Source of the DNA: Collinsella ihumii
GTDB taxonomy: Bacteria; Actinomycetota; Coriobacteriia; Coriobacteriales; Coriobacteriaceae
DNA length: 64,000 nt
Assembly (NCBI RefSeq): GCF_900046475.1
Contig: NZ_FCOU01000001.1
Span: 62,001-126,000 of the forward strand
Direction of reading: 5' to 3'
A program made the position numbers and the translations under genes. The notes beneath the pieces were generated by a model. It was not told where the DNA came from. It made no database searches and saw nothing but the letters and a program-made list of their open reading frames with translations. Shown one piece after another: positions 8,038 to 57,444 of this stretch (position 1 is its first letter; each line of letters opens with the position of its first letter).

Positions 8038-9486
8038 GGGGGTGCGGCAGGAATCCTGGAGCGCCGGGGCGGGAAGGAACTGCGATGTTCACACCCGAGG
8101 AGAGGGAGGCGGCGCTCGGGCTCTACGACAGGCTCGGGAGCGTCCCCGCCGCGGTCGCCGAGCTCGGCTACCCCAGCGAGCGCTGCCTCTACGGCTGGAT
8201 CGCCCGCCGGGACGGCGCCTGCACCCGTCCGCGTGCGGTAAGATACCCCGCGCAGGAGAAGGCGGCGGCCGCCAGGCGCGTCCTGTCCGGGGAGAGCTGC
8301 GCCGCCGTCGCCGCCGACGTCGGGGCCTCCGCCTCGGCGGTCCTGCGCTGGCGGGACGCCTATGCAGAGGGAGGGATCGGGGCACTCATGGCCAAGGGGG
8401 ACGTGGTCGCGCCGGGGCCGCGCGCGGACGCGGGCGCGCTGCCCGACGACGCGGGGGAGCTCAAGCGGATGGTCCTCGAGCTCCAGCTCGAGAACGACCT
8501 CATGCGGCAGGTGGTCGAGCTCGTAAAAAAAGACCCCTGCGTCGACCCGACGCGCCTCTCGAACAGGGAGAAGGCCCAGGTGATCGACGCGATGAGGGGG
8601 ACGTATTCTCTGAGCTGTTTGGCCTCTAGGCTCGGCATCGCCGCGTCCAGCTACCACTACGCCCGGGCCGCGGCCGCCGCGCCCGACAAGTGGGCCGAGG
8701 CGCGCGCGGCGGTCGTCGAGGAGTTCGAGGGCGCCGGGCGCTCGCGCGGCTACCGCTACGTCCACCGGCGCCTCGCGGAGCGCGGGATAGCCTGCGGGGA
8801 GCGCAAGGTGCGCGAGCTCATGGCCGAGGAGGGCTGCGTCGTCGTGTACCTGAGGCGGCCGAAGAGGTGGAGCTCCTACGCGGGGGAGGTCTCCGAGGCC
8901 CCGCCCAACCTCGTGGAGAGGTCGTTCCGCGCCGAGGCCCCCAACAGGCTCTGGCTGACCGACATCACCGAGTTCGCGCTGCCGGACGCGGGCGAGCCGA
9001 AGGTGTACCTCTCGCCCGTCGTCGACTGCTTCGACGGGATGCTGGCGTCCTGGTCCATCGGCACCTCCCCGAACGCCGAGCTGGCGAACTCCAGCCTGGA
9101 GCGCGCGTGCGAGGGGCTCGCCGACGGCGAGGCGCCCGTGGTCCACAGCGACCGGGGCGGGCACTACCGGTGGCCCGGCTGGATCTCGATCTGCGAGGAG
9201 CGCGGGCTGACCAGGTCGATGTCGAGGAAGGGCTGCAGCCCGGACAACGCGGCCTGCGAGGGCTTCTTCGGCAGGCTCAAGAACGAGTTCTTCCACGGCC
9301 GTGACTGGCGGGGCGTGGGCGCGGAGGAGTTCATGCGGAGGCTGGACGCGTGGCTGAGGTACTATAACGAGGTCCGCATCAAGGAGTCCCTGGGCTGGAT
9401 GAGCCCGAAGCGGTACCGGGAGTCGCTGGGCCTCGCGGCCTAGCCCGATGTTTGCCCCGGCGCTCCAGGATTCCTGCCGCACCCCC
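8038..9486 (+). mobile_element. IS3-family insertion sequence, complete
   Basis: About 1.45 kb, bounded by 33-base perfect inverted repeats (8038-8070 and 9454-9486) that begin GGGGGTGCGGCAGGAATCC. A three-base direct repeat CGA flanks it (8035-8037 and 9487-9489), within the 3-5 bases usual for IS3 elements. Removing the element and one CGA restores GTCCCC-CGA-TTTGCA, identical to the centre of intact family A repeats, so the insertion target was a repeat. It carries one transposase gene that looks intact. Confidence 0.88.
8085..9443 (+). CDS. IS3-family transposase, OrfAB in a single reading frame
   Basis: A 452-residue transposase. The N-terminal part has two helix-turn-helix-like segments (about 1-110) and a leucine-rich coil (LELQLENDLMRQVVELV), as in OrfA. 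The rest is the OrfB integrase core, with DDE residues in WLTDITEF (about 292), HSDRGGHY (about 354) and EGFFGRLKNE (about 390). I chose the ATG at 8085, preceded by GGAAGGA. At 8525-8532 the run A7G resembles the IS3 slippery site. Here both parts are already in frame, and a -1 slip would instead end translation near 8629. Confidence 0.92.
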   Translation: MFTPEEREAALGLYDRLGSVPAAVAELGYPSERCLYGWIARRDGACTRPRAVRYPAQEKAAAARRVLSGESCAAVAADVGASASAVLRWRDAYAEGGIGALMAKGDVVAPGPRADAGALPDDAGELKRMVLELQLENDLMRQVVELVKKDPCVDPTRLSNREKAQVIDAMRGTYSLSCLASRLGIAASSYHYARAAAAAPDKWAEARAAVVEEFEGAGRSRGYRYVHRRLAERGIACGERKVRELMAEEGCVVVYLRRPKRWSSYAGEVSEAPPNLVERSFRAEAPNRLWLTDITEFALPDAGEPKVYLSPVVDCFDGMLASWSIGTSPNAELANSSLERACEGLADGEAPVVHSDRGGHYRWPGWISICEERGLTRSMSRKGCSPDNAACEGFFGRLKNEFFHGRDWRGVGAEEFMRRLDAWLRYYNEVRIKESLGWMSPKRYRESLGLAA

Positions 9487-13201: not shown

Positions 13202-13265
13202 TGCATATCGGGGACGTACCTGCTCCATGCAATAATGCACGCGGAAGGTACGTCCCCGATATGCA
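13202..13265. repeat. Dispersed repeat family A, palindromic pair
   Basis: TGCATATCGGGGACGTACC and, in reverse, GGTACGTCCCCGATATGCA flank a centre of GC(T)CCATGCAATAATGCACGC. The two arms form a long imperfect hairpin, the arrangement seen in bacterial REP/BIME repeats. Confidence 0.75.
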
Positions 13266-13375
13266 GTCCGGGCCCCGTATGCACGCGATGGGCAAACCGC
13301 ACCTCGAAATGCCAGCTATTTCCAAAAGTAAGAGCCCGCGCCTCACACGCCAACGGCAAAACGGGCGCGCTCAGC

Positions 13376-14095
13376 CTAGAGGTCGAGCATATACCTCGAT
13401 CCGATGAAGTACTGACGGCCGATATAGACGGGCTTGTCATCCTGGTCGAGTGCATACGTCGCGATGTACAGCAACGGCTCGCCCTTAGCGACCTGAAGCA
13501 ACCCAGCCTTGGAACTCGAGGCGCCGACAGATTGGATGAGTACGCGCGCGTTCTTGACCGGCCGACGACCATACAGCTCGTTCATAAGCTGATAGATCGA
13601 CTCGCTCTCAAGCTGTACGGTGGCCAGCTCCTGGTTCTGACTGTACGGCAGGTACATATTCTCTTCAAATATGGGAACATCATCCGCCGTGCGCACGCGC
13701 TTGATGTGCAAGACGAGCTCACCCTCCGAAAGACCGAAGAAATCGCTCTCGTCGGGCCTCGGCAACACGATTTCCCGTTTCACCAAACGAGCTCCGGACT
13801 CGCGGCCATTGTGGCGACAGATGTCAGTGAAGCTCTCGGGCAATCCACCCTGTAGAAGCCGACGCCGCATGCGCGGAGCGCAAACGAAGGTGCCGAGTCC
13901 GCGGCGCTTAACGAGATAGCCCTCCGTACTCAAATCCTCAATCGCGCGACGCACGGTGATGCGGCTTACGTTGTACATCTCGGAGAGCTCGGCCTCGGTG
14001 GGAATCTTCTCGTCCGGCTTATAGGTACCGCCTTCAATCGAGGCTTTGATATCATCGAAAATCTGTCGATATAGCGGCATTTCAGTCTGACGCAC
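13376..14095 (-). CDS. GntR/HutC-family transcriptional regulator of the PTS operon
   Basis: A 239-residue regulator. The N-terminal winged helix (about 1-75) has PTEAELSEMYNVSRITVRRA, and the C-terminal UTRA-type ligand domain (about 90-235) binds a small effector in this family. I chose GTG at 14095 because GAGGAG lies 6 bases upstream; the longer frame has no such site. It is the last gene of a long sugar operon but has its own leader. A TATACATCT motif is shared between that leader and the operon promoter, suggesting control of both. Confidence 0.88.
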   Translation of the reverse strand: MRQTEMPLYRQIFDDIKASIEGGTYKPDEKIPTEAELSEMYNVSRITVRRAIEDLSTEGYLVKRRGLGTFVCAPRMRRRLLQGGLPESFTDICRHNGRESGARLVKREIVLPRPDESDFFGLSEGELVLHIKRVRTADDVPIFEENMYLPYSQNQELATVQLESESIYQLMNELYGRRPVKNARVLIQSVGASSSKAGLLQVAKGEPLLYIATYALDQDDKPVYIGRQYFIGSRYMLDL

Positions 14096-14202
14096 GTTTC
14101 GCTCCTCGTTCCGCACACCACGCACCATAAGAAAACCGCTGCTCAAGATGCTCGGCACGGTTTTCGGCGAGCAGACCGCCTGGCGAGCATGGCGAAGGGT
14201 TC

Positions 14203-14220
14203 TATACATCTATAACCTAT
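14203..14220. promoter_or_regulatory. Candidate operator upstream of the gntR gene
   Basis: TATACATCTATAACCTAT. The first nine bases are identical to a motif upstream of the operon's first gene (22086-22104), and AAC/TAC follow at matching positions. Autoregulation is inferred. Confidence 0.4.
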
Positions 14221-14249: not shown

Positions 14250-14290
14250 TCCCTTAATTTAAAAGAAAGGGGCGCCCTCGACGCCCCTTT
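14250..14290 (-). terminator. Intrinsic terminator of the PTS/aldolase operon
   Basis: On the minus strand AAAGGGGCG and CGCCCCTTT pair, followed by CTTTTAAATT. It follows the aldo/keto reductase gene, so gntR is probably transcribed separately. Confidence 0.8.
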
Positions 14291-14327
14291 CCGCACATGT
14301 TGCGCAACCCGAAGCGGGTCCGACCGT

Positions 14328-15302
14328 CTAGGCCGCTGCCTCGGTGATGCCCAAACGGAGAAGCTCCGCATCGAGCAGATCGATGTCGGCCTGGTCGAGC
14401 TGCCATTCGAACGTGGCGCAGTTCTCCTCCGCCTCATGAACGTTGCGAACGCCCGTGAGCGCCGTGGTGACGAAGCTCTTCTGCGTACTCCAGTTTATGG
14501 CAATCTGGGCGAGCGGCTTCCCGTACTTCTCGGAAACCGTGTCCATCGTCTTCAGGAACTCCTGGATCTTCGAGAACATCGGCTCATGGTAGAACGGGTA
14601 GAAGGTGTTGCGGAAATCGTTCTCCGCGAAGTTCGGCTTCTCGCGAATCGAGCCGGTCAGGATACCCGAGCCCAGCGATCCCCACGTCATGACGTCGATG
14701 TCATGCTCCTCGCACCATTTGAGCTGATCGATAGCAGACTGGTTGACCATAGAGAACGGCAGCTGGACGATATCGATGTCGGCATATTCGGAAGCCTGGG
14801 CAATATAATCGGTGTCGACATTGCACAGGCCGATCATCTTGACCTTGCCCGCCTCCTTGAGGCCCTGGACATAGCTCATCGTATCCTTGATGGGCGTGCC
14901 GAAATCATCGGGCCAGTGCATGAGGTAGATATCGAAGTAATCCGTACCGAGGCGACGAACCGAATCCGCGAACTCGCGCTCGATGGACTCCGGTGTGCTC
15001 TTGTGGACGCCCTTACCGTCCTCGATATACGACCCGAACTTGGTGGCAAGAACGATCTTGTCGCGGTCGAGGCCCTGCATGGCCTTGCCGACAACCTCCT
15101 CGGAATGGCCGGACCCGTAGATAGGGGCCGTATCGATCAGGTTGACGCCGCCCTCGAGCATCGCGCGAATGGCACGAATCGACTCGGCGTCATCGACCTC
15201 TCCATAGCTCGCGCCCAAGGAGTTGGCACCGCCGATGGCCCACGTTCCAACCGTGATGGCGGAAATATCGACCCCGGACTTCTTCATAGTCTTGTAGCGC
15301 AT
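14328..15302 (-). CDS. Aldo/keto reductase
   Basis: A 324-residue NAD(P)H-dependent (beta/alpha)8 reductase. Catalytic residues are recognisable: Asp and Tyr in NLIDTAPIYGSGHSE, Lys in VLATKFG, His in YLMHWPDD. The start at 15302 follows GGAGGAG. It is the last structural gene of the PTS operon, two bases after the zinc dehydrogenase gene. Together with an aldolase and a zinc dehydrogenase it recalls the E. coli ydj cluster (YdjG). The substrate cannot be told from sequence. Confidence 0.9.
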   Translation of the reverse strand: MRYKTMKKSGVDISAITVGTWAIGGANSLGASYGEVDDAESIRAIRAMLEGGVNLIDTAPIYGSGHSEEVVGKAMQGLDRDKIVLATKFGSYIEDGKGVHKSTPESIEREFADSVRRLGTDYFDIYLMHWPDDFGTPIKDTMSYVQGLKEAGKVKMIGLCNVDTDYIAQASEYADIDIVQLPFSMVNQSAIDQLKWCEEHDIDVMTWGSLGSGILTGSIREKPNFAENDFRNTFYPFYHEPMFSKIQEFLKTMDTVSEKYGKPLAQIAINWSTQKSFVTTALTGVRNVHEAEENCATFEWQLDQADIDLLDAELLRLGITEAAA

Positions 15303-15304
15303 GG

Positions 15305-16354
15305 TTACTTCTCCTCCTGACAAATCACACTGATACGGAACATGCCCGGCTCGCAAGCGCGCTCAAAGGCGTGCTGGATCTCGTCGAGCGGAATCTTCTC
15401 CTCGACCAGCTCGGAGAAATTGGCGACACCCATGTTGATGAGGTTGGCCGCCTCTTTGAAATCGACATAATCTGCACCATAGGTGCCGACGATTACCATG
15501 CGGCGGTAGTGGACCGTGTTGGGATCGAGCTCCCATTTGGGCGCCGGATAGCCCGCGGCGAAGATGAGCAGGCGGCCGCGCTTCTCCTTGAGCATGTCGA
15601 TGGCCTGCGCGTATGCGCCGGAAGCGGCAACGGCAACGATAACGCCGTCGGCGCCCTTACCACCCGTGAGCTCCTTGACCTTCTCGACCGGGTCGCACGC
15701 GGAGACATCAATGGCCTCGAGCCCCAGCCTGCGGGCGGCGTCGAGCTTCTTGGGCATCATCTCGGTGATGAGCACGCGGCAACCGTGTGCCTTGGCAACG
15801 AGGGCGTTCAGGATTCCCATGGTGCCCGCGCCGATAACCACGACCGTATCCCCGAAGTCGCAGCCGAAGCGACGGAACCCGGCGCAGCAGGTGCCCAAAG
15901 GCTCGAGAAGGGCGGCGGTAGAGGGGTCGATGCCCTCATCGATCTTGTAGCAGGCGACCTCGTTGACAATCGTGCGCTCAGCGCAGCCCGCATTCCCGAA
16001 ATAGCCGTCGGGATTGGGATGATCGGCCCCCATGAGGTGCGGGCACTCGCTTGTGCGGCCCTCGCGGCTGGGAATGGTATACGGATCGTAGTGATAACCA
16101 CTCGCCACGTAATCGCCCACCTGCACGCTCGAGACCTCGGAGCCCACTTCCTCGACGATGCCGGCCCACTCGTGACCGAACACAAGCGGAAGAGGACGGT
16201 TGGTGCGAGCGCCGTTGAAGACACCGTACTCAGACGTGCAGATGTTATCCGCAAGGATGCGCACGAGGACCTCATGGCTCCCCACCTCGGGAAGCTCTCG
16301 GTCGACGAGCTCCGCTTTGCCTGCCGCACGAAGAACCGCAGTTTTAACTAGCAT
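15305..16354 (-). CDS. Zinc-dependent alcohol/polyol dehydrogenase
   Basis: A 349-residue MDR-superfamily dehydrogenase. The catalytic zinc ligands are visible in ICTSEYGVF (Cys) and GHEWAG (His-Glu). The NAD-binding fold has GAGTMGILNALVAKAHG. The four-cysteine structural zinc loop of classical alcohol dehydrogenases is not present in the usual form. It probably oxidises or reduces a sugar (phosphate) hydroxyl. It follows the mannitol-dehydrogenase-like gene after a 72-base gap holding a hairpin and is almost contiguous with the aldo/keto reductase gene. Confidence 0.88.
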   Translation of the reverse strand: MLVKTAVLRAAGKAELVDRELPEVGSHEVLVRILADNICTSEYGVFNGARTNRPLPLVFGHEWAGIVEEVGSEVSSVQVGDYVASGYHYDPYTIPSREGRTSECPHLMGADHPNPDGYFGNAGCAERTIVNEVACYKIDEGIDPSTAALLEPLGTCCAGFRRFGCDFGDTVVVIGAGTMGILNALVAKAHGCRVLITEMMPKKLDAARRLGLEAIDVSACDPVEKVKELTGGKGADGVIVAVAASGAYAQAIDMLKEKRGRLLIFAAGYPAPKWELDPNTVHYRRMVIVGTYGADYVDFKEAANLINMGVANFSELVEEKIPLDEIQHAFERACEPGMFRISVICQEEK

Positions 16355-16383
16355 GTCTACTCCATTTCTCATTATCTATCGGG

Positions 16384-16420
16384 GCCTGCGTCGCATCGGC
16401 GACGCGCACGCGACGCAGGC
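16384..16420. repeat. Intergenic hairpin inside the PTS operon
   Basis: GCCTGCGTCGC and GCGACGCAGGC form an 11-base-pair stem between two dehydrogenase genes. No U tract; it may shape mRNA stability between the two halves of the operon. Confidence 0.55.
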
Positions 16421-16426
16421 ACGCTG

Positions 16427-17581
16427 TTATCGAACTCGAATATCGCGCACGTGCTTCACCACAAGGTCGAGCACCAGCCAGTCCGAATCCTTGAGGCCGC
16501 ACGTCCTGCACGCGAACGAGTGGACCGCCTCATCGTCCTCGAGGGCCTCGTTCTGCTCTTCCGCCAAGCGGAGCAACCCGTATGCGATACCGCGCGCAAG
16601 GTAGAACGGCACGATGCCATGTTCCACGCACATCAGGGCAGGACCGACGAAACGGTTTTCCCGAGAGAGCTTCTCGGCCGTGCCCGCCATCACGCGATCG
16701 ACGGGATCCTTCACGTCGGCGTCGAGCTTGGCCATGATGAACGCGACCCATTCCGCGTCCTCCTCATCATCGAAGGAGTACTCCTGGAGAATCGCCGCGT
16801 GCGCCTCGTCGAACGCCCCCGTGATGTTTGAGCGGATCCACGGATCCCGGTAGCAGTCGCAGATGTAGCGCAGCCCCTGGTGAACACCCATGAACGCCGA
16901 CATCGCATGAAGCATGTTGCCGCAATAGACCTTGCGATAGATATGGCCTTGGGCCCCATGGACATACGAGACGTGCTCCACCTCGATGCGCGGTCCCACC
17001 CACGCGTCGGCATCGATTTCAAGGCCAGGGTTAGCAGACACCACAACCTGCCAGGGATTTGCCCCCGGCTCGCTCGGCATGCCCGCAGCAAGCACCATGA
17101 CCTGGCACACACCGACCATGCGATCGAAATAGGCGCGCTCGTCAACCGTCAGCTCCGCCTCGATATACCCGCGGACCTTTGCGGGCGCACCCAGCGCGTT
17201 GACGCACAGCAAGATGTTGAGCGGGCGCTCGCAACCGGCCTCGCAGCGGCAGCGGATCGCTCGGGCCATCGCATGGGAGATGCTTTCGAAGGCCCCTTCG
17301 TACACGCAGCAGGCGGCGATATCCACCTTGTCGCTGAGCAGCTCAACGATGTCCTCGTCATCGGCGGCATCCACGATATCGAACGCATCGATACGCGTCG
17401 TCTCATCGATGGCGTGCCCGTCGGTCACACGGGCATCGTAATAACCCTGGGCTTTGAGCTGGCGCATACCCTCGACGTACCTGTCGTACAGATGCAGCTT
17501 CCAGCCCTCGTTTGCAAAAAGGAGTCCCACGACACCGCGGCCGATCTTTCCGGCGCCGAGGATCGCGATTTCCTTACCCAT
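16427..17581 (-). CDS. Mannitol dehydrogenase family protein (polyol-phosphate dehydrogenase)
   Basis: A 384-residue long-chain polyol dehydrogenase. An N-terminal Rossmann fold has GAGKIGRGVVG (about 8-18), and the catalytic K-x4-N-x2-H motif is visible in KVYCGNMLH (about residue 220). In this family mannitol-1-phosphate 5-dehydrogenase and fructuronate or altronate reductases act on substrates of this kind. I chose the ATG at 17581 because GGAGG lies 8 bases upstream. It follows the PTS IID gene by 24 bases, so its substrate is probably the phosphorylated import product or a derivative. Confidence 0.85.
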   Translation of the reverse strand: MGKEIAILGAGKIGRGVVGLLFANEGWKLHLYDRYVEGMRQLKAQGYYDARVTDGHAIDETTRIDAFDIVDAADDEDIVELLSDKVDIAACCVYEGAFESISHAMARAIRCRCEAGCERPLNILLCVNALGAPAKVRGYIEAELTVDERAYFDRMVGVCQVMVLAAGMPSEPGANPWQVVVSANPGLEIDADAWVGPRIEVEHVSYVHGAQGHIYRKVYCGNMLHAMSAFMGVHQGLRYICDCYRDPWIRSNITGAFDEAHAAILQEYSFDDEEDAEWVAFIMAKLDADVKDPVDRVMAGTAEKLSRENRFVGPALMCVEHGIVPFYLARGIAYGLLRLAEEQNEALEDDEAVHSFACRTCGLKDSDWLVLDLVVKHVRDIRVR

Positions 17582-17605
17582 GCTATCGACCTCCACTCCC
17601 ATGGA

Positions 17606-18445
17606 CTAGCCGATGATGCCGAGCAGGGACAGAACCACGCCGATGGCGAGGATGCCGAACAGCATCGGGACCATACCGACCTTCTTGCTGCGCAGCAGCG
17701 CATAGCAGATCAGCACGAGCGCCAGAGGCAGCATCTTGGGCATGACGCCATCCAGCAGGGCCTGAAGCGCCGTGGGATCGGTGTCGCCGGCACCACCGAA
17801 GGTGATCGGGGTGGTGAGGGCGACGTTGGTCGCCGTCATGGCGCCGATGGCCGCCAGACCGATAACGCTTGCGGCATAGGAGATCTTCTCCATGATGCCG
17901 GAGGACGCCGCCTCGTCCAAGAACCTCGTGCCCATGGTGTAGCCCATCTTGAGCGTCCACCAGCGGGCGATAACCTGCGGGATATTGAAGATCAGGAAGA
18001 ACAGCACCGGACCGGCGAAACTGCCCTGCATGCACAGGTCGATTGCAACCGAAACCGCGACAACGCGCAGCGTCGAGTGGAAGATGGTGTCGCCCACCGC
18101 CGAAAGCGGGCCCATGAGCGCCGTCTTCACGCCGGTGATGGTCGAGGTGTCGAAGTCCTCGCTTTGGGCGTTCTGCTCCTCCAGGGCAAGCGTCACGCCC
18201 ATGGGAAGTCCGCTTACATACGGAGTGACGTTGAAGTACTCGTTCATATGGCGCTCGTACGCATCGACGAGTTTCTTATCGTCATCCTTGTAGATCTTCT
18301 TGAGCGCCGGCATCATGGCATAGGTGTATCCGCTGTGCATCTGGCCGGGATAGTCGTTCATGCCGTTCAGATGGATGGCGCGGCGGAACGTGTTGGCAAG
18401 ATCCTTGTTGGAAAGAGCGCCGCCCCGCTTCTCGTTAGAACTCAT
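17606..18445 (-). CDS. PTS mannose/fructose/sorbose family, IID component
   Basis: A 279-residue membrane component. The conserved IID stretch GVKTALMGPLSAVGDTIFHS is present in the middle, with hydrophobic helices at the C-terminus. It overlaps the IIC gene by 11 bases, so translation is probably coupled. It works with IIC as the membrane channel of the sugar transporter. Two start codons lie close together (18451 and 18445); I use the second. Confidence 0.94.
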   Translation of the reverse strand: MSSNEKRGGALSNKDLANTFRRAIHLNGMNDYPGQMHSGYTYAMMPALKKIYKDDDKKLVDAYERHMNEYFNVTPYVSGLPMGVTLALEEQNAQSEDFDTSTITGVKTALMGPLSAVGDTIFHSTLRVVAVSVAIDLCMQGSFAGPVLFFLIFNIPQVIARWWTLKMGYTMGTRFLDEAASSGIMEKISYAASVIGLAAIGAMTATNVALTTPITFGGAGDTDPTALQALLDGVMPKMLPLALVLICYALLRSKKVGMVPMLFGILAIGVVLSLLGIIG

Positions 18446-19208
18446 TGTCATCCTCCATATCTACCGTCGAAAGGTTGGCGTTCTTCTCACCGCGCGCATT
18501 GATAATGAGCAGCACGGCGGCAGTGGCAAGAAGTGTCACCGCGATGGTGGGCATGCCAAGGTAGGCCGTGAAGATGAAGCCCACGAAGAACCACGGGGCG
18601 AGCTGCTTGTCCATCACCATGGTGAGTAGCAAGCCGAAGCCGACCGCGGGAAGGAGGTTGCCGGCCGCGTTGAGCGCGTTGATGACATTGGTGGGAATAG
18701 CCGCCACGGCCGCCTCCATAGCGGTGCTCCCGAAGAAGACGGCAGTGAAACCGATGAGGAAGTACAGGCCGAAGGTACCGATCCAGCTGCCCGCCCAGAA
18801 CAGGGCTCGCGCGGCCCCATCGTTTCCGTGAGAGAGCTGAGACTTCATGGCCTCGGCGAAGATGTTGTTGATGAACTTGCACAGCACGTACGCGAAGCCG
18901 CCGATAAGGGCCAGCGGAACCGCGAACGTCGTGCCGATGCCGGCGCCCGCACCTGTCAGGATGGCGAACGCGGTGGAGATGCCGGCGGCCGTACCGCCAT
19001 CGGGAGAAACAGCCGCGCCGATGGGGAACGAGCCCAGAAAGACGATCTCGAGCGTCGCACCGATGATCGTGCCTGTAGCAACGTCGCCGAGCACCAGGCC
19101 GACCAGCGCTCCCTCGACGATAGGCCTATTGAGCATGCAGTAGCCGAAGAAGTAATCCATCTTGCACAGGCCTACCACCAGGCCAGCAAGCAATGCCGAA
19201 ACAAACAC
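18435..19208 (-). CDS. PTS mannose/fructose/sorbose family, IIC component
   Basis: A 257-residue polytopic protein starting MFVSALLAGLVVG, with the IIC hallmark PIVEGALVGLVLGDVATGTIIGA (shown here in part) and VSPDGGTAAGISTAF. It forms the substrate channel. Its start overlaps the stop of the TIM-barrel gene by one base. Confidence 0.94.
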   Translation of the reverse strand: MFVSALLAGLVVGLCKMDYFFGYCMLNRPIVEGALVGLVLGDVATGTIIGATLEIVFLGSFPIGAAVSPDGGTAAGISTAFAILTGAGAGIGTTFAVPLALIGGFAYVLCKFINNIFAEAMKSQLSHGNDGAARALFWAGSWIGTFGLYFLIGFTAVFFGSTAMEAAVAAIPTNVINALNAAGNLLPAVGFGLLLTMVMDKQLAPWFFVGFIFTAYLGMPTIAVTLLATAAVLLIINARGEKNANLSTVDMEDDNEF

Positions 19209-20041
19209 TAGTATTCACGTCCCTTCAAGGTGGTTAGTGAACTTGTGAGCACCGCGTACGGATGCTCGAAGTACGAAGATTTCGTCATCTCAAGCGCGCA
19301 GTCCCCTGAATAGCCCCCTGCTTTCAGCTGTTTCAGGATCTCTACCGGATTGAGACTACCCGCCTGGTCACCCCATCCCACATGGGCGGGGTCACATGGG
19401 TTGAGGTTGGTGAGGTGGACGTATCCGATATCGGAGCCGAACGCATCAAGCCAAGCCGCCAAGCTCTCACCGTTTCGCACGATAGTCCCGGTATCCAACG
19501 TGACCGTCAGGCTCGTCCTCCCCACCTCGTCCACAATGCCCGCAACGTCTTCGAGACTCGAAACGAGTCGATACGGACGGCGTACGAGGGGCTCGATTGA
19601 AACCGTCATGCCCGCGTCGGCCGCCATATCGCAAATCCGTCGCACAGCCAGCACAAGGGCCTCGCGGGCTTTCTGTCGGTCCGAGTCGAGCGGCGTCCAG
19701 CCGCCGTTGATCGAGATGCGCTTTGTGCCGAGCACCTGACCGAGCTTCACGATATTCCGGTAATAGCCGAGCGTGAGCCTCTGGGTTGCCCTGTCGAGCG
19801 ACGCCAGATTGTATGCCTTGGGATTCGACTGTTCGGGAGTCAGCGTGCGTACCCGCAGACCCGATTCGGAACAGCTCGATGCCACCTCGTCGAGGTTGTA
19901 CACATCCCATGCATCGATGTTGACGTGGTTATTGCAAAGCCAGAGATCGACATCGAGAGCGCCGACGGCCGAGACATCATGACAGAAGGTGGCAAACGAC
20001 CAGTAACGCCAGATCTGATTGGTGGGAAGAAAACGGAGCAT
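19208..20041 (-). CDS. Xylose-isomerase-like TIM-barrel protein (sugar isomerase/epimerase)
   Basis: A 277-residue AP-endonuclease-2/xylose-isomerase-like barrel. Likely metal ligands are Glu in VSIEPLVRR, Asp in VTLDTGT, His in GYVHLTN and Glu in CALEM. Members of this fold isomerise or epimerise sugars and sugar phosphates. The gene sits between the aldolase and the IIC gene in a tight operon, which suggests that it prepares the imported sugar for aldol cleavage. Specificity cannot be inferred. Confidence 0.85.
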   Translation of the reverse strand: MLRFLPTNQIWRYWSFATFCHDVSAVGALDVDLWLCNNHVNIDAWDVYNLDEVASSCSESGLRVRTLTPEQSNPKAYNLASLDRATQRLTLGYYRNIVKLGQVLGTKRISINGGWTPLDSDRQKAREALVLAVRRICDMAADAGMTVSIEPLVRRPYRLVSSLEDVAGIVDEVGRTSLTVTLDTGTIVRNGESLAAWLDAFGSDIGYVHLTNLNPCDPAHVGWGDQAGSLNPVEILKQLKAGGYSGDCALEMTKSSYFEHPYAVLTSSLTTLKGREY

Positions 20042-20067
20042 CGTGAACCCTCAACCAATAGGGGCTG

Positions 20068-20928
20068 CTAAGCCTTGTTCACGCAGCCAAAGACCTCCAT
20101 GTAGTGCATGAGGGCCTTCTTGTAAGCTTCGGCGCCGATCTCGTTATACTGGCACGCGTTGATCTTCTTCTTGTCCGGATCGACATCGGGCGCATAGTCG
20201 GCGTCCATGGCATCCTTGATGGCCAGGTTCGAAGCCTGGGAAAGGTCGGTCCAAAGATTGACCTTCTGGATGCCGCACTCGATGGCGTGCGCAATCAGAT
20301 CGTCACCCGTACCGGACCCGCCGTGGAGCACGAGCGGGACGTCCACACTCGAAGCGATGGTCTGCAACAGCTCGTACTCAAGATGAGGCGTGCCCTTATA
20401 GGCACCGTGGGAGGTACCCACGGCCACCGCCAGACAGTCGACACCCGTCTCCTCCACGAACGACGCAGCCTCGTCGGGATGCGTCAGACCGGCGTCGCGC
20501 GTCTCCTCGTACTCGTTGCCCTGACCGACGTGACCCAGCTCGGCCTCGACCGAAACGCCCACCGCATGGGCGATCTTCACGATCTCCTTCGACTCGGCCA
20601 CGTTTTGCTCATACGGCAGTGTGGAACGGTCGACCATCACGGAGCTGAAGCCAGCGCGGATGGCACGAATCAGATGCTCGAACGGACCGCCGTGATCCAG
20701 ATTGAGCGCAAAGGGCACGCTCGGATAGCGGCGCTCGTAAAAGCGAGCAAGCTCACCCATCTCCTCGATACCGAAAACACCCGGGCAGCCGAGAATAACC
20801 GGGGCGTTCATCTCGTCGGCCGCCTGCAGGCACGCCTCCATGGTGAACCGGCTGAATACGTTCGGAGCCGGAATGCCGTAATGGCCCTTCTTAGCCTCCT
20901 GCAAGAGCACATGCATCGGTTCCAACAT
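20068..20928 (-). CDS. Class II aldolase, fructose/tagatose-bisphosphate aldolase family
   Basis: A 286-residue zinc-dependent aldolase (MLEPMHVLLQEAKKGHYGIP). The zinc region reads NLDHGGPFEH, EAELGHVGQG is present, and the phosphate loop is HGGSGTGDD. It differs from the housekeeping fba at 56593-57444: the usual DGSH is DRST here, so the substrate is probably not fructose 1,6-bisphosphate. GGGAGG precedes the ATG. GatY, KbaY and YdjI are candidate relatives. It lies within the PTS operon between IIB and the TIM-barrel gene. Confidence 0.88.
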   Translation of the reverse strand: MLEPMHVLLQEAKKGHYGIPAPNVFSRFTMEACLQAADEMNAPVILGCPGVFGIEEMGELARFYERRYPSVPFALNLDHGGPFEHLIRAIRAGFSSVMVDRSTLPYEQNVAESKEIVKIAHAVGVSVEAELGHVGQGNEYEETRDAGLTHPDEAASFVEETGVDCLAVAVGTSHGAYKGTPHLEYELLQTIASSVDVPLVLHGGSGTGDDLIAHAIECGIQKVNLWTDLSQASNLAIKDAMDADYAPDVDPDKKKINACQYNEIGAEAYKKALMHYMEVFGCVNKA

Positions 20929-21038
20929 TGCTTTGCCTCCCTTTCTCTGAAAGCATTTCATCGGCTTCTTGAAGGGAAAAGAGATAGAACTACCCATCGC
21001 CACGCGCTTTTGTTTTCACACGCGGTTTGCCTTCAAGA

Positions 21039-21059
21039 GTCCGCGAGCCGCTCGCGGAC
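21039..21059. repeat. Hairpin between PTS IIB and aldolase genes
   Basis: GTCCGCGAG, CCG, CTCGCGGAC: a 9-base-pair stem just after the IIB stop codon. With no U tract it may be an mRNA stabiliser or partial attenuator. Confidence 0.5.
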
Positions 21060-21078
21060 GCCGTTGTTGCATATCTAC

Positions 21079-21540
21079 TTACTTGTAGATGGTCTTTTTC
21101 TCTGTGGGCACCTGCTGGATCCCCAGCTCAATACCGCGATCGGCGAGCTCGTGCAGTATCTCTTCCTCCTCGGGGAGCAGGAAGATCGCTTGATCGACCT
21201 GACGCGTACCCGGACGGTTCTTGATGCCGCCCAGATTGACGCTATTGATCTCAGGGATCGCATCGCAGATCTTCTTCGCATCCGCCACGCTGCCGGTCAC
21301 GATGAACAGGTTGTACTTGTCCGTAACACCGCTCTTGATCGCCTTGATGCTGTCCTCGATGCTCTTGATCACGAGCTTGATGCCCTGCGGCTTGGCGAGC
21401 CGCAACGTCGACATCTTGAGCTTATCTGTAGCCGCCTCGTCATCAGCAACCAAAATGCAATCGGCGCCGATGCTCCGCGTCCACGAGAACGCGACCTGGC
21501 CGTGCAGAAGCCTGTGGTCGATACGGAATAGCTTAATCAT
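21079..21540 (-). CDS. PTS mannose/fructose/sorbose family, IIB component
   Basis: A 153-residue cytoplasmic phosphotransfer protein. The phosphorylated histidine is in IDHRLLHGQVAF near the N-terminus, the family hallmark. It follows the IIA gene by 21 bases and is separate from it rather than fused. Confidence 0.95.
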   Translation of the reverse strand: MIKLFRIDHRLLHGQVAFSWTRSIGADCILVADDEAATDKLKMSTLRLAKPQGIKLVIKSIEDSIKAIKSGVTDKYNLFIVTGSVADAKKICDAIPEINSVNLGGIKNRPGTRQVDQAIFLLPEEEEILHELADRGIELGIQQVPTEKKTIYK

Positions 21541-21561
21541 GTCGCTCCCTCTCCCTACGTT

Positions 21562-21990
21562 CTAGAAGCTGTTGCCCTCGTCCTCTTCGTCGCCTCTGTC
21601 TAGCAACGTATCACATAGCACGATGTGCTCACGAGCCGCAGACACAATCCTGGGAAGAGATTCGACCAGCTCTTCAACTGGACACATGCTCATCTCGAGA
21701 AGCAATGCAAAGTTGATACCCGTTATCAAGTGAAACGGATACTCGGCGAGCAGCTGCATAAACTCGTTATTGACCGAGCCTCCAAGAACATCGGTGAGCA
21801 CAAACAGCTCGGCTTTGGAGTAATCATGCTCGGATACGATGCGTCTGAACTCAACCTGGTAATCAACGTCCTTGTCAACGTACGCCGTGATGCACTCGAT
21901 AGGACCGATATCGCCAGCAACCATATGCAGCGAGGACAAGATACCTTCGGAGAACCCGCCGTGCGTCGCAACAATAATTCGCTTATCCAT
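21562..21990 (-). CDS. PTS mannose/fructose/sorbose family, IIA component
   Basis: A 142-residue IIA domain protein and the first gene of the operon. The phosphohistidine lies in VATHGGFSEG (about residue 10), and TDVLGGSVNNE is conserved. The ATG at 21990 follows GGGAGG (AAGGGAGGTGCAGAGGA). Phosphate flows HPr to IIA to IIB to sugar. A candidate GntR operator lies about 100 bases upstream. Confidence 0.95.
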   Translation of the reverse strand: MDKRIIVATHGGFSEGILSSLHMVAGDIGPIECITAYVDKDVDYQVEFRRIVSEHDYSKAELFVLTDVLGGSVNNEFMQLLAEYPFHLITGINFALLLEMSMCPVEELVESLPRIVSAAREHIVLCDTLLDRGDEEDEGNSF

Positions 21991-22085
21991 TCCTCTGCAC
22001 CTCCCTTCATGCGTTGCCTTTTGATTCCACGATGCCAACCAGCCGACGAGGCACGCGTCCGCCTTTCTTGGTCGTCAATAGGTAA

Positions 22086-22104
22086 TATACATCTGGTACG
22101 TTAT
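22086..22104. promoter_or_regulatory. Candidate operator of the PTS/aldolase operon
   Basis: TATACATCTGGTACGTTAT in an AT-rich promoter region; it shares TATACATCT and downstream AC with the site before the operon's gntR gene (14203-14220). Confidence 0.4.
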
Positions 22105-22198: not shown

Positions 22199-22543
22199 GC
22201 GAAAATGTCACCCCTCGTTGGGCGAAAATGTCACCCCTCCGGAGGCCCGCCTGGTCTCCCGCCTCCGGAACGCCCTCGCGAGCTCGGCCTCGGACGGGGC
22301 GGGGCCGAACCGGTCGGCGGGGCCCCTCGGCGCGAACGCGAACTTCGCGTTGATGTAGGGGGCGTAGTAGCCGTTGAACCGCTCGTTCAGCCGGTCGTAG
22401 TCGGATATGCCGAACCTCAGGCAGTCGGTGGGCAGCCTGAGCTTGATCGTCCGGTGGGCCCGCTCCACGCGCCCCTTCGCCTGCGGGGTCGAGGCGAGCA
22501 CCATGCGCACCCCCAGGTCCCCCGTCATCTCCGCGAACTGCAC
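22199..22543 (-). pseudogene. Truncated transposase (ISNCY-like) with tandem end repeats
   Basis: About 111 residues match only the C-terminal part of a DDE transposase: ASTPQAKGRVERAHRTIK carries the last catalytic Glu region, and the N-terminal helix-turn-helix and the aspartates are missing. The reading starts inside the domain. Downstream on the same strand are two copies of GCGAAAATGTCACCCCTC (22199-22216 and 22222-22239), probably the element's end. No matching left end was found, so it is a dead fragment. Confidence 0.75.
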
Positions 22544-22890: not shown

Positions 22891-23643
22891 CTAGCCGAGG
22901 AGGGCCAGCACCTGGCGCTTGTGCTCCAGGAACTCCTCGGTCAGGGCGAAGGAGGCGCGCTCTGCGCGCGGGCACGGTATGCGCTCGGTGCCCACGATGC
23001 GCGTCGGGCGCCCCGCCTGGGGAGCGCCGCGCATGACGAAGATCTCGTCGGCGAGCTCAAGCGCCTCGTCGACGTCATGGGTCACGACGAGCGCCGTCGT
23101 GCCGAAGCGCTCGGCGACGTCAAGAAACCATGCGTGCATGTCGGCCTTGGTGAACGCGTCGAGCGCGGAGAAGGGCTCGTCGAGCAGCATGAAATCCTGG
23201 CTGAACAGATAGCTGCGAAGCAGGGCGGCGCGCTGCCGCATGCCGCCGGAAAGCTCCGAGGGCCAGCGGTCGGTCGTGCCCGCGAGCCCGAACGTGTCGA
23301 ACAGCGCGAGCGCCTGCTCCCGTGCCTGGGCACGGGGCACCCCGCGCAACACGAGCGGCAGGGACACGTTGTCGACGATCGTCTTCTCGGGCAGCAGCAA
23401 GTCCTTCTGCAGCATGTACGCCAGCTGCCCCGGCGCGCCCGTGATGTCGCGCCCGTCGAGCTCGACGCTGCCGGAATCGGGCAGTGAGAGCCCGGCGACC
23501 ACATGGAACAGGGTCGTCTTGCCGCAGCCCGAGGGGCCGAGCAGGCAGGCGATATGCCCGGCAGGTACCGTCAGGCTGATGTCGTCGAGTACCTGGACCC
23601 CATCGAACGCCACGCACACGTGCCCGACTTCAAGCTGTGCCAC
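22891..23643 (-). CDS. thiZ: ABC transporter ATPase for a thiamine precursor (ThiZ-like)
   Basis: A 250-residue ATPase of the nitrate/sulfonate/taurine class. Walker A GPSGCGKTT, signature LSGGMRQRAALLRS, Walker B FMLLDEPFSALD and the H-loop VVTHDVDEA are all present. I chose GTG at 23643 because GGGAGG lies upstream; the longer frame lacks family similarity. It is the last gene of a unit headed by a TPP riboswitch, which points to import of a thiamine precursor such as hydroxymethylpyrimidine. Confidence 0.88.
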   Translation of the reverse strand: MAQLEVGHVCVAFDGVQVLDDISLTVPAGHIACLLGPSGCGKTTLFHVVAGLSLPDSGSVELDGRDITGAPGQLAYMLQKDLLLPEKTIVDNVSLPLVLRGVPRAQAREQALALFDTFGLAGTTDRWPSELSGGMRQRAALLRSYLFSQDFMLLDEPFSALDAFTKADMHAWFLDVAERFGTTALVVTHDVDEALELADEIFVMRGAPQAGRPTRIVGTERIPCPRAERASFALTEEFLEHKRQVLALLG

Positions 23644-23701
23644 GTTTGCCTCCCCCTGGGAGCAGCGAGCCGCCGCCGCTGCCCCGTGCCCTAAGCTTCT
23701 G

Positions 23702-24784
23702 TTAGATAAACTGCAGGTCAAGACCGGCACCGGGCTCGATCTCAGGCGCAAAGCCCTGATCGCCAACCCAGCCGAAGAACGCGTCCCAGCGGCCCTGGTC
23801 GATCACGCCCCACGCGTCGGCGTCGGCCTGGTACTGGTCGGCCAGGTACTCCTGGCTCGCGCGCACGAGCTCCTCATCGAGCTCCGGCGACGCCTCGAGC
23901 AGCACGTCGGCGGCTGCGTCCGGGTCCGCGATGCAGTCCTCGTAGCCGCGGCGCGTCGCATCCAGAAACGCCTGCACGGTGTCGGGGTCGTCGGCGATCA
24001 GGTCGTCGTTGGCGATGATCACCGGTGTGTAGAAGTCGAAGACCGAGTCGATGTCGGCGAACGCGAAGTAATTCGTGTCGAGGCCCGCAAGCTGGCACTT
24101 CACGCCGGCCCACGCCCAGTAGATCCAGATGGTGTCCACCTGGTCGGTCTGCAGAGCGGTCACCTCGTCGGTCACCGTGGAGGGGATCATCTGCACGCGG
24201 CTGAAGTCTCCCCCGTCGGCCTCGACGCAATGCTTGATCACGCCCTGCTCGATGGGACCCTCCCAGGTGGCGTACGTGTGGTCCATCATAGCCGCGGGAT
24301 GCGTGATGCCCTTCTCGGCGCGGCTAATGATGCCCGAGGTGTTGTGCTGGATGATGGCGGCGATGGCGCTCACGGGAAGACGGCTGTCCTCGCTCGAGAC
24401 GTAGCTCGCCATGGTGTCCTGGAAGCTCACGCCGAACTGGGCCTCGCCGGTGGCGACCAGGGCGTCGGCGCCGTTTTCGGGCGCCTGCACGATCTCGACC
24501 TCGAGACCGGCCTCCTCGTAGTACCCGCGGGCCGCGGCGACGTACACGCCCGTGTGGTTGGTGTTGGGCGTCCAGTCGAGCGCGAACGTGATCTTTTTGA
24601 GCTCAGAGGCGCCTGTTGCCGCGGAGCCGCCGGAAGATGCGGTGCTCGACGAGGTGCCGTCGGAGCATCCGGCGAGCGCAGAGGCACCGAGGACGCCGGC
24701 GCCCGCAAGGCCGCACCGCACAAGCCCGCGGCGGGAAACCGGACGGTGGGCAAAAAGCTGATCGATGGTTGAGATGCGAGACAT
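23702..24784 (-). CDS. thiY: Thiamine-precursor-binding lipoprotein (NMT1/THI5-like, ThiY)
   Basis: A 360-residue secreted binding protein. The N-terminus has a twin-arginine-like SRRGLVRCG, a hydrophobic stretch and the lipobox LAGC, so it is probably a lipid-anchored Tat substrate. The mature part starts with FALDWTPNTNHTGVYVA, the hallmark of ThiY/THI5-like proteins. Co-transcription with the permease and ATPase under a TPP riboswitch supports a pyrimidine precursor as ligand. Confidence 0.9.
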   Translation of the reverse strand: MSRISTIDQLFAHRPVSRRGLVRCGLAGAGVLGASALAGCSDGTSSSTASSGGSAATGASELKKITFALDWTPNTNHTGVYVAAARGYYEEAGLEVEIVQAPENGADALVATGEAQFGVSFQDTMASYVSSEDSRLPVSAIAAIIQHNTSGIISRAEKGITHPAAMMDHTYATWEGPIEQGVIKHCVEADGGDFSRVQMIPSTVTDEVTALQTDQVDTIWIYWAWAGVKCQLAGLDTNYFAFADIDSVFDFYTPVIIANDDLIADDPDTVQAFLDATRRGYEDCIADPDAAADVLLEASPELDEELVRASQEYLADQYQADADAWGVIDQGRWDAFFGWVGDQGFAPEIEPGAGLDLQFI

Positions 24785-24836
24785 ATGACTCTCCAATATG
24801 CGAAATCTGATCGATGCGCCTTGTCGGCACCTTTTC

Positions 24837-25646
24837 CTACCCCTCGGAGCGCTCCCAGGGCATGAGCTTGCGGCGCAGCGCGCCGACCGCCCACATGAGC
24901 ACCAGCGACAGGGCGGAGATGAGGATGATCACGGCGAACATCTTGTCGAACGCGTAAGCGCTGCGCACGCGGGTCATGTAGACGCCCAGGCCCGAGAAGC
25001 CGCCGAGCCACTCGGCGATGACCGCGCCCACGATGGCGTAGGTCGCGGAGATCTTCAGGCCCGAGAATAGGTGCCCGAGCGACGCGGGCAGCTTCGCGTG
25101 GCGCATGATCTGCGCGCGGCTCGCGCCCATGGACCGCATGAGGTCGATGACGTCGGGGTCGACGGAGCGGAACCCGTCGAGCAGCCCCACCGTGATCGGG
25201 AAAAAGGTCGTGATGACGATAAGCACGACCTTGGGCAGCATGCCGTAGCCGAACCACAGCACAAGCAGCGGCGCGATGGCGACCGTCGGGATGGTCTGCG
25301 TGAGCACGACGAGCGGATAGAACGCACGGTAGACGAGCTCGAAGCGGTCCATGAGGACCGCCGCGGCGAAACCGAGCGCGATGCCGCAGGCGAGCCCCGC
25401 CGCCGCCTCGGCGAGCGACGTCACGGCATGGCCGGCCAGCAGCTGCCAGTCGCCGACGAGCGCCTGGATGACCGCCACGGGGCTCGGCAGCAGAAACGAC
25501 GGGACGAGCCCCACCGAGCACACGAGCTGCCAGATGGCGACCAGGGCCAGCACGGTCACCGGGGCGGCCAGCTTGCCGACAAGCGGGCTCACCCCCGCCG
25601 TGCGCGCAAGCGCCGGCGCACCCGAGCCCTTACGCTTCGGACTCAT
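24837..25646 (-). CDS. thiX: ABC transporter permease for a thiamine precursor (ThiX-like)
   Basis: A 269-residue permease with about six membrane helices and the EAA-type loop MRSMGASRAQIMRHAKLPAS that contacts the ATPase. It overlaps the upstream thiamine-binding gene by 17 bases. Order from the promoter is riboswitch, thiamine-binding protein, permease, binding protein, ATPase. Confidence 0.9.
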   Translation of the reverse strand: MSPKRKGSGAPALARTAGVSPLVGKLAAPVTVLALVAIWQLVCSVGLVPSFLLPSPVAVIQALVGDWQLLAGHAVTSLAEAAAGLACGIALGFAAAVLMDRFELVYRAFYPLVVLTQTIPTVAIAPLLVLWFGYGMLPKVVLIVITTFFPITVGLLDGFRSVDPDVIDLMRSMGASRAQIMRHAKLPASLGHLFSGLKISATYAIVGAVIAEWLGGFSGLGVYMTRVRSAYAFDKMFAVIILISALSLVLMWAVGALRRKLMPWERSEG

Positions 25647-25938
25647 GGTACTTTCCGACCTTCTGCTCCGTCGTCAGCAGGCCGCGCTCGGGCGCATAGA
25701 AGATCTTGGCATAGGTGGCCACCTTGTCGGCGCCGGCCTTGATGACGATACGGTTCACCTCGGCGAGCACCTCCATGCACAGGTCGTAATCGCCCTCGAT
25801 CGCGGTCTCGAACGGACCGACGTACGCATCGGGGAACTTGGACATGATGTAGGCGATGGCCTCGTCGACGATGCGGCAGGTCTCCTCGTCGCTCTCCGTG
25901 TTCTGCGGCAGCACCTGAATCGCTACGCTTGCCTCCAT
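25630..25938 (-). CDS. Thiamine-binding YkoF/MTH1187-like protein
   Basis: A 102-residue protein starting MEASVAIQVLPQNTES, with a second conserved block YVGPFETAIEGDYD. It corresponds to a single domain of the YkoF/DUF77 thiamine-binding family. GGAAGGGAAG precedes the ATG. It is the first gene after the TPP riboswitch and overlaps the permease gene, fitting a role in thiamine salvage; its exact function in such operons is not settled. Confidence 0.85.
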   Translation of the reverse strand: MEASVAIQVLPQNTESDEETCRIVDEAIAYIMSKFPDAYVGPFETAIEGDYDLCMEVLAEVNRIVIKAGADKVATYAKIFYAPERGLLTTEQKVGKYHESEA

Positions 25939-54704: not shown

Positions 54705-54728
54705 TGCCTCCGGGCCGCTCCGGACCGA

Positions 54729-54785
54729 AGGGGTGTCCCCGATTTGCAAAAATGCACGCGCAAGGTACGTCCCCCGATTTGCACG
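54729..54785. repeat. Dispersed repeat family A
   Basis: GGGGTGTCCCCGATTTGCAA, then AAATGCACGCGCAAGGTACG and TCCCCCGATTTGCACG. It lies 25 bases after a family B copy. Confidence 0.75.
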
Positions 54786-56592: not shown

Positions 56593-57444
56593 TTATGCGC
56601 GGCCGATGGAACCGAGGTTCTCCATGCGGATCTTCACGATCTTGGTGATCTCGGCCATACCCGCCTTGCCCGGCTTCTTGGGATCGAAGGCATCCGGGTT
56701 CTCGGCCATGAAGCCCTGATAGCCGCGGGTGTACGCCTGGCGCAGCTCGGTGGCGTAGTTGACCTTGCAGATGCCGTTCTTCACGGCCTCGGCGACCTGC
56801 TCATCGGGCACACCGGAGGTGCCGTGCAGCACCAGCGGCACGTCCACGGCGGCGCGGATGGCGCGCACGACGTCCTGCTCGATATGCGGGGTCTCGGTAT
56901 ACACGCCGTGAGCGGTGCCCACGCCGATGGCGAGGCTGGTGCAGCCGGTGCGCTCGACGAACTCGCGCGCCTCGTCCGGATCGGTGTAGGGGTTCTCGCC
57001 CTCGACCGCCGGACCGTCGTCCTCCTTGCCGCCGACCTTGCCGAGCTCGGCCTCCACCGGCACGCCCATGGCGGCGCCGGCGCGCGCCACGCTCGCGGTG
57101 AGCGCGATGTTGTCCTCGAAGCTCTCATGCGAGCCGTCGATCATGACGGAGGTGTAGCCGGTGCGGAGCGCCTGCATGCAGCGATCGTAGCCGTCACCGT
57201 GGTCGAGGTGCAGGGCGACCGGCACGCTCGCGCGCTCGGCAGCGGCTTTCACCATGCCGTAGAAGTAATCGAGACCGGCGAACTTCACCGTACCGGGCGT
57301 GGTCTGCATAATCACCGGGGACTTGGTCTCCTCGGCGGCAGCCAGCACGGCCATGACGAACTCGAGGTTCTCGATGTTGAAGGCACCGACCGCGTAGTGG
57401 TTCTTCTGGGCATCGAGCAGCATGTCCTTGGTGGTAACGAGCAT
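56593..57444 (-). CDS. fba: Class II fructose-1,6-bisphosphate aldolase
   Basis: A 283-residue zinc aldolase. HLDHGDGYD carries the zinc and catalytic region, MIDGSHESFEDN is canonical (unlike the PTS-operon paralogue, which has DRST), and the phosphate loop HGTSGVPDE is present. The ATG at 57444 follows GGAGGG. It is probably the housekeeping glycolytic aldolase. Tagatose-bisphosphate aldolase is the alternative, given the PfkB and DeoR genes near it. Confidence 0.92.
   Translation of the reverse strand: MLVTTKDMLLDAQKNHYAVGAFNIENLEFVMAVLAAAEETKSPVIMQTTPGTVKFAGLDYFYGMVKAAAERASVPVALHLDHGDGYDRCMQALRTGYTSVMIDGSHESFEDNIALTASVARAGAAMGVPVEAELGKVGGKEDDGPAVEGENPYTDPDEAREFVERTGCTSLAIGVGTAHGVYTETPHIEQDVVRAIRAAVDVPLVLHGTSGVPDEQVAEAVKNGICKVNYATELRQAYTRGYQGFMAENPDAFDPKKPGKAGMAEITKIVKIRMENLGSIGRA

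Follow-up and report, generated by a model that had tools for sequence, protein, structure and literature searches.

A ten-gene operon in Collinsella ihumii joins a Gfr-type phosphotransferase system to an aldolase and redox module

Introduction

What does an operon break down when it carries a mannose-family phosphotransferase system (PTS), an aldolase, an epimerase and three oxidoreductases, but no kinase? The question is raised by a locus in a 64,000-nucleotide stretch of Collinsella ihumii DNA (contig NZ_FCOU01000001.1, positions 62,001 to 126,000; hereafter the window, whose own numbering is used throughout), where nine genes were called between 14328 and 21990 on the minus strand. A first-pass annotation had likened these genes to the Escherichia coli ydj pathway, with PTS phosphorylation in the place of the kinase. 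Our analysis suggests that the fructoselysine/glucoselysine PTS loci of the Gfr type, which that annotation missed, are the better comparison. What is unusual about the operon, within known PTS-linked sugar catabolism, is the pairing of a PTS of the Gfr type with an aldolase and redox enzymes. We tentatively propose, at somewhat less than an even chance, that a Gfr-derived PTS would yield a C6-phosphate which, after redox and epimerisation steps, would undergo aldol cleavage to dihydroxyacetone phosphate (DHAP) and an unphosphorylated aldehyde.

Results

All nine gene calls were upheld: the genes are intact, free of internal stops and on one strand, with intergenic gaps of -8 to +75 nt and a sole exception of 165 nt between the IIB and aldolase genes. 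Left out of the first-pass annotation were a tenth member, a GntR/UTRA regulator gene downstream of the aldo/keto reductase (AKR) gene, the strong intrinsic terminator that sits between these two genes, and two operators (Table 1). The ten genes occur in identical order, and as tightly spaced, in at least four Coriobacteriia genomes beside the window's own, namely two of the same genus (G025 and G031), Collinsella/Enorma massiliensis (CAPI01000033) and Jeddahella massiliensis OL-1 (LM994627), which rules out a chance neighbourhood; a near-identical contig of a metagenome-assembled genome carries part of the block. In every copy the IIA gene is preceded by a palindrome of 18 bp that reads GTAATAGACGTATATTAC or differs from it slightly; the operator at this site is kept as GTWATAGACGTATAKTAC in other copies. 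The window's two operators had no matches in 100 shuffles of the window, and genome-wide their exact matches are just these two sites; the linked GntR protein is the putative binder of both palindromes. The earlier reading is supported in so far as this is a real, co-regulated, kinase-less PTS/aldolase/oxidoreductase operon with an unassigned substrate. Profile searches found no kinase gene in the operon, and none is present in any of the five copies; no SIS-domain deglycase was found in the window operon or the four other copies, the rest of the genome not having been searched for such deglycases.

The PTS IIB is 57-64% identical to its counterparts at loci of Enterococcus raffinosus, Enterococcus faecium, Klebsiella and Cetobacterium and 59-64% to those of the Gfr-type loci that Klebsiella and Enterococcus carry on plasmids, versus 48% for a Gfr-type locus of Collinsella aerofaciens and 28-29% for AgaV/AgaB. 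In trees, both IIB (95/99) and IID (95/96) group with Gfr-type loci. Ten plasmid neighbourhoods of related PTSs were inspected: nine hold SIS-domain proteins, and the tenth, from Pantoea, has the Gfr-type sigma-54 regulator, IIA and IIB next to insertion sequence (IS) elements. The gfr operon of Salmonella is laid out in this way; there, fructoselysine and glucoselysine are taken up and phosphorylated by GfrABCD, and GfrE/F deglycate (cleave) the 6-phosphates (PMC12675984). The window operon shares with gfrABCDEF a mannose-family PTS with related IIB and IID, and FrlC-like epimerases adjoin some Gfr-type loci, including the one in C. aerofaciens. The SIS deglycase of gfrABCDEF is, however, replaced in the window operon by an aldolase, three oxidoreductases and an epimerase, and where several Gfr-type loci have a sigma-54 activator it has a GntR/UTRA regulator. 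A Coriobacteriaceae genome and an Enterococcus avium plasmid (L023 and L033) hold another kind of mannose-family PTS cluster, accompanied by a distant MtlD-like enzyme; one protein of L033 also matches mannose-6-phosphate isomerase weakly.

The aldolase belongs to the class II DHAP aldolase superfamily (PF01116), keeping the catalytic Asp, the three zinc-binding His and the DHAP-phosphate residues. In the phylogeny against GatY, KbaY, FbaA and YdjI that the first-pass annotation had called for, the operon aldolases and a 58% identical paralogue form a clade of their own (maximum likelihood, 100/100); the clade of GatY, KbaY and the Klebsiella tagatose-bisphosphate (TBP) aldolase (100/100) excludes the operon aldolase, and the fructose-bisphosphate aldolases (FBAs) and YdjI stand apart too. 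The grouping with tagatose-bisphosphate aldolases that the first-pass annotation had named as its own refutation is therefore not seen. One row of this tree, a lone aldolase from genome G134, is on a long branch. The motif SVMVDRST does replace the DGSH type, as had been noted, but such departures are common (DASA in YdjI, DASH in GatY, DGST, DGSM or DGSL in several other class II aldolases): the last position varies in many relatives, and the Arg of DRS- is the only motif feature peculiar to the operon-aldolase clade.

In FbaA, Ser61 and Arg331 bind the distal phosphate of the substrate, a role we give as established knowledge because a literature search on it, and on ketose-1-phosphate class II aldolases, yielded nothing useful. 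Each of the eight rows identified as FBA/TBP-type (FbaA, GatY, KbaY, the Klebsiella TBP aldolase, the Bacillus, Staphylococcus and Allomeiothermus FBAs, and L002 of the window's own genome) has Ser or Thr in the first of the two columns and Arg in the second. The operon aldolase has Pro at the first, Cys or Trp at the second and a shorter loop, and YdjI likewise lacks the Arg. An assignment as tagatose- or fructose-bisphosphate aldolase was rejected on the tree and these residues. Since the distal-phosphate residues are lost and the operon has no kinase, the simplest reading is that the aldolase substrate would carry one phosphate. The structure model of the aldolase is modest (pLDDT, predicted local distance difference test, 68) and was used for the fold only.

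The paralogous aldolase lies beside tyrS (L018, G000 C12) in the order DeoR regulator, DRST aldolase, Zn-dehydrogenase, iron-dependent alcohol dehydrogenase and HAD phosphatase, and no transporter was found at this locus. Its Zn-dehydrogenase, which adjoins the aldolase, is 48% identical to that of the operon, and because the pair recurs here, aldolase and Zn-dehydrogenase are the conserved core; the AKR and the iron-dependent enzyme would be interchangeable candidates for aldehyde reduction. Other aldolases of the wider clade are found at fructose-type PTS loci that contain no kinase. At one further locus (L092, G302 C1:438000-456000), a 6-kb stretch beside fructose- and galactitol-type PTS genes contains three genes for class II aldolases; for two of these, which are adjacent, no linked kinase was seen. 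The window itself holds a second class II aldolase (56593-57444) with a normal DGSH motif, which groups with a Subdoligranulum protein and not with GatY.

The TIM-barrel protein falls within the ketose 3-epimerase family (DTE/FrlC/UlaE) by its PF01261 barrel and Glu/Asp/His/Glu site. Its best NCBIfam model is fructoselysine 3-epimerase (4.5e-13), its structure model matches D-psicose/tagatose 3-epimerases and UlaE, and the metal site (Glu150, Asp183, His209 and Glu251) is invariant in the operon copies and in register with relatives; the epimerase at the C. aerofaciens Gfr-type locus is 27% identical to it. In the MtlD-like enzyme the motif K-x4-N-x2-H is retained and aligns with E. coli MtlD. 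Among NCBIfam models it matches mannitol-1-phosphate 5-dehydrogenases best (E 4e-46), with a score below the cut-off (158 vs 356 bits), which marks it as a predicted relative, not a member, of that group. The Zn-dehydrogenase retains the residues for the catalytic zinc (Cys, GHE and Glu, aligned with YdjJ and GatD) and has none of the structural-zinc Cys of YdjJ. The best model for the AKR is YdjG (1e-59), at 202 of the 550 bits needed.

Of 45 genomes of the genus, four (one being that of the window) have a match to the MtlD-like protein, which in one case is a distant homologue only; the operon-type aldolase occurs in five of 398 class genomes, with the paralogue alone in one, and in the phylum sample it was found in the window's own genome only. 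Plasmids, searched for relatives outside Actinomycetota, returned none that was close to the aldolase, the MtlD-like enzyme or the epimerase. For the aldolase, Zn-dehydrogenase and AKR, the window shows 90-91% identity to genomes of another genus and another family and 76-87% to the two same-genus copies (the comparison value for a housekeeping class II aldolase being about 69-76%, with wrong-frame rows at 25-30% left out), and IID is likewise nearer to the copies in other genera. The flanks differ as well: the window copy is bordered by feoAB and an IS-like remnant, the G025 copy by the prfA/prmC region, and a prmC-like gene also adjoins the C. massiliensis copy. Because identities are higher across genera and families than within the genus, and because the flanks differ, the data fit a horizontal spread of the operon among Coriobacteriia. 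The window copy may be a mosaic, since GntR alone shows the reverse pattern (69-73% to the same-genus copies, 61-62% to those of other genera). The epimerase and IIA are fast-evolving among the copies (52-63%).

A transposon-borne unit was considered and rejected. The IS-like remnant (22208-22543; no Pfam match), which resembles the end of an IS transposase, carries terminal GAGGGGTGACATTTTCGC direct repeats and lies directly upstream of the operon promoter, and an intact IS3-like transposase lies between inverted repeats at 8085-9443, with related repeats of 47-59 nt near 13208-13273 and 54726-54784; the two elements have no common sequence, so they form no composite transposon. Elsewhere in the window (22891-25938), an ABC transporter (ATPase, NMT1-like binding protein and permease) with a small protein resembling the thiamine-binding YqgV/MTH1187 is perhaps a thiamine-precursor transporter.

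Table 1. The operon and its control elements in window coordinates.
Feature	Coordinates	Strand	Evidence
PTS IIA, mannose family	21562..21990	-	PF03610 E 7e-13; 30-32% vs Gfr-cluster IIA
PTS IIB, Gfr-type	21079..21540	-	PF03830 E 8e-48
Class II aldolase, DRST clade	20068..20931 (start 20931 or 20916)	-	PF01116 E 1e-82
TIM-barrel ketose 3-epimerase-like protein	19208..20041	-	PF01261 E 6e-26
PTS IIC	18435..19208	-	PF03609 E 4e-60; 33-35% vs Gfr-cluster IIC
PTS IID	17606..18445	-	PF03613 E 3e-88
Mannitol-1-phosphate 5-dehydrogenase-like enzyme	16427..17584	-	PF01232 E 3e-13, PF08125 E 7e-11
Zn-dependent medium-chain (MDR) dehydrogenase	15305..16354	-	PF08240 + PF00107
Aldo/keto reductase (AKR)	14328..15302	-	PF00248 E 2e-66
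Intrinsic terminator after AKR gene	14264..14292	-	13-pair stem, then T run
GntR/UTRA (HutC-type) regulator, start uncertain	13376..14128	-	PF00392 + PF07702; kept in all copies
Operator upstream of IIA	22082..22099	-	GTACCAGATGTATATTAC; overlaps -10-like box
Operator upstream of gntR	14199..14216	-	GTTATAGATGTATAGAAC

Discussion

In the pathway that we tentatively favour, the Gfr-derived PTS would import a compound resembling a hexose or hexitol, with a modification at the C1/C2 end, and phosphorylate it at C6, the end left free. Oxidation state and C3 configuration would be adjusted by the MtlD-like enzyme and the 3-epimerase, and the Zn-dehydrogenase, as the aldolase's conserved partner, would oxidise the carbon next to the phosphate. 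The resulting 5-keto-6-phosphate is, viewed from the phosphate end, a ketose-1-phosphate, which the aldolase could cleave to DHAP, bound for glycolysis, and a three-carbon aldehyde that keeps the modification and has no phosphate; reduction of this aldehyde by the AKR would re-oxidise NAD(P)H. Both promoters would be held shut by GntR, as a repressor bound to the palindromes, and opened when an inducer releases it; a phosphorylated pathway intermediate is the probable inducer. The regiochemistry (C6 phosphate, C5 oxidation, DHAP release) is modelled on Gfr phosphorylation and on the chemistry of IolJ, the myo-inositol aldolase that converts a 5-keto-6-phosphate to DHAP and an unphosphorylated aldehyde. 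IolJ was set beside the operon by description, and the myo-inositol pathway differs in having the IolC kinase and no PTS.

Several observations weigh against this pathway. IIC, likely the specificity subunit, is placed weakly outside the Gfr clade and has low identity to Gfr IIC (Table 1), and the tree drew on a small set of reference PTSs that left out those for sorbose, levan and glucosaminate. The epimerase scores far under the curated profile cut-offs, and the structure models were built on three sequences. The alignment around the Arg331 position is uncertain, and a conserved KKK nearby is a possible distal-anion site; a kinase from another part of the genome could also serve the pathway in trans. 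The redox steps are given in a proposed order.

The alternative that survives best, although we consider it unlikely, is that the PTS phosphorylates a ketose of the L-sorbose or D-fructose type at C1, after which C3 is epimerised and the ketose-1-phosphate is cleaved directly; the MtlD-like enzyme and the Zn-dehydrogenase would make ketoses from polyol phosphates, like SorE/SorD in sorbose operons. It would account for the missing kinase, the kinase-less fructose-type PTS loci beside wider-clade aldolases, the loss of the distal-phosphate residues and an epimerase fold that is that of ketohexose 3-epimerases, but it needs fewer than three oxidoreductases, and IIB and IID are of the Gfr type, whose known substrates are phosphorylated at C6. 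The L-sorbose operon itself has a mannose-family PTS and a Zn-dependent sugar-phosphate reductase, as here, and differs in having no aldolase or epimerase (a comparison by description).

Very unlikely, in our estimate, is a ydj-like pathway for an acidic higher sugar, after the first-pass idea of a PTS in the kinase's place. The combination of aldolase, Zn-dehydrogenase and AKR does recall E. coli ydjEFGHIJ(KL), the YdjI aldolase shares the missing distal-phosphate Arg, and the conserved KKK might bind a carboxylate. However, orthology was rejected: the aldolase, Zn-dehydrogenase and AKR are 39%, 23% and 32% identical to YdjI, YdjJ and YdjG, the MFS transporter (YdjE-type) and PfkB kinase (YdjH) of ydj are absent from the window operon, and its PTS, MtlD-like enzyme and epimerase have no place in ydj, the last two being surplus to such a pathway. 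YdjI pairs instead (100/100) with a protein of another Coriobacteriaceae genome (G208), which has a full ydj operon of its own (YdjI 75%, YdjJ 68%, YdjH 60%, YdjG 66%, YdjL 82%). The kinship with ydj is not supported, while the general scheme, a PTS in the kinase's place feeding a ketose-1-phosphate-type aldolase, is still plausible. The G208 locus (L095) is a complete ydjE/F/G/H/I/J/L-type operon, 43-82% identical to that of E. coli.

The most doubtful reading, a hexitol or hexose degraded through a ketose 1,6-bisphosphate in the galactitol/tagatose manner with the second phosphate from a kinase encoded elsewhere, could draw on the likeness of the MtlD-like enzyme to hexitol-phosphate dehydrogenases, the usual bisphosphate substrates of class II aldolases of this fold and the lysines near the Arg331 position, but is opposed by the aldolase's separation from GatY/KbaY, its missing Ser61 and Arg331 equivalents and the lack of a kinase in all five copies. 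The galactitol (gat) and N-acetylgalactosamine (aga/kba) operons also combine a PTS with a class II aldolase, and gat a Zn-dehydrogenase, but their aldolases, with a DPR Arg, lie in another clade, they have no epimerase or AKR, and the galactitol PTS is of another family.

A further reading, which we hold to be quite unlikely, is that gut Coriobacteriia degrade a glycation-type compound, Amadori-like or of the reduced Amadori-like kind, without a deglycase: Gfr-type uptake and 6-phosphorylation, then oxidation and retro-aldol cleavage, would give DHAP and an amino-acid-bearing C3 aldehyde with the C-N bond unbroken.

If the proposal is true, Coriobacteriia, which are common gut bacteria, would own a second way to use compounds taken up by Gfr-type PTSs, and more would be known of what microbes do with glycation products from the diet or with related derivatives of hexitols. 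A clade of class II aldolases would gain a new specificity that can be tested, and it would follow that the annotation of a Gfr-type PTS alone is no proof of fructoselysine degradation.

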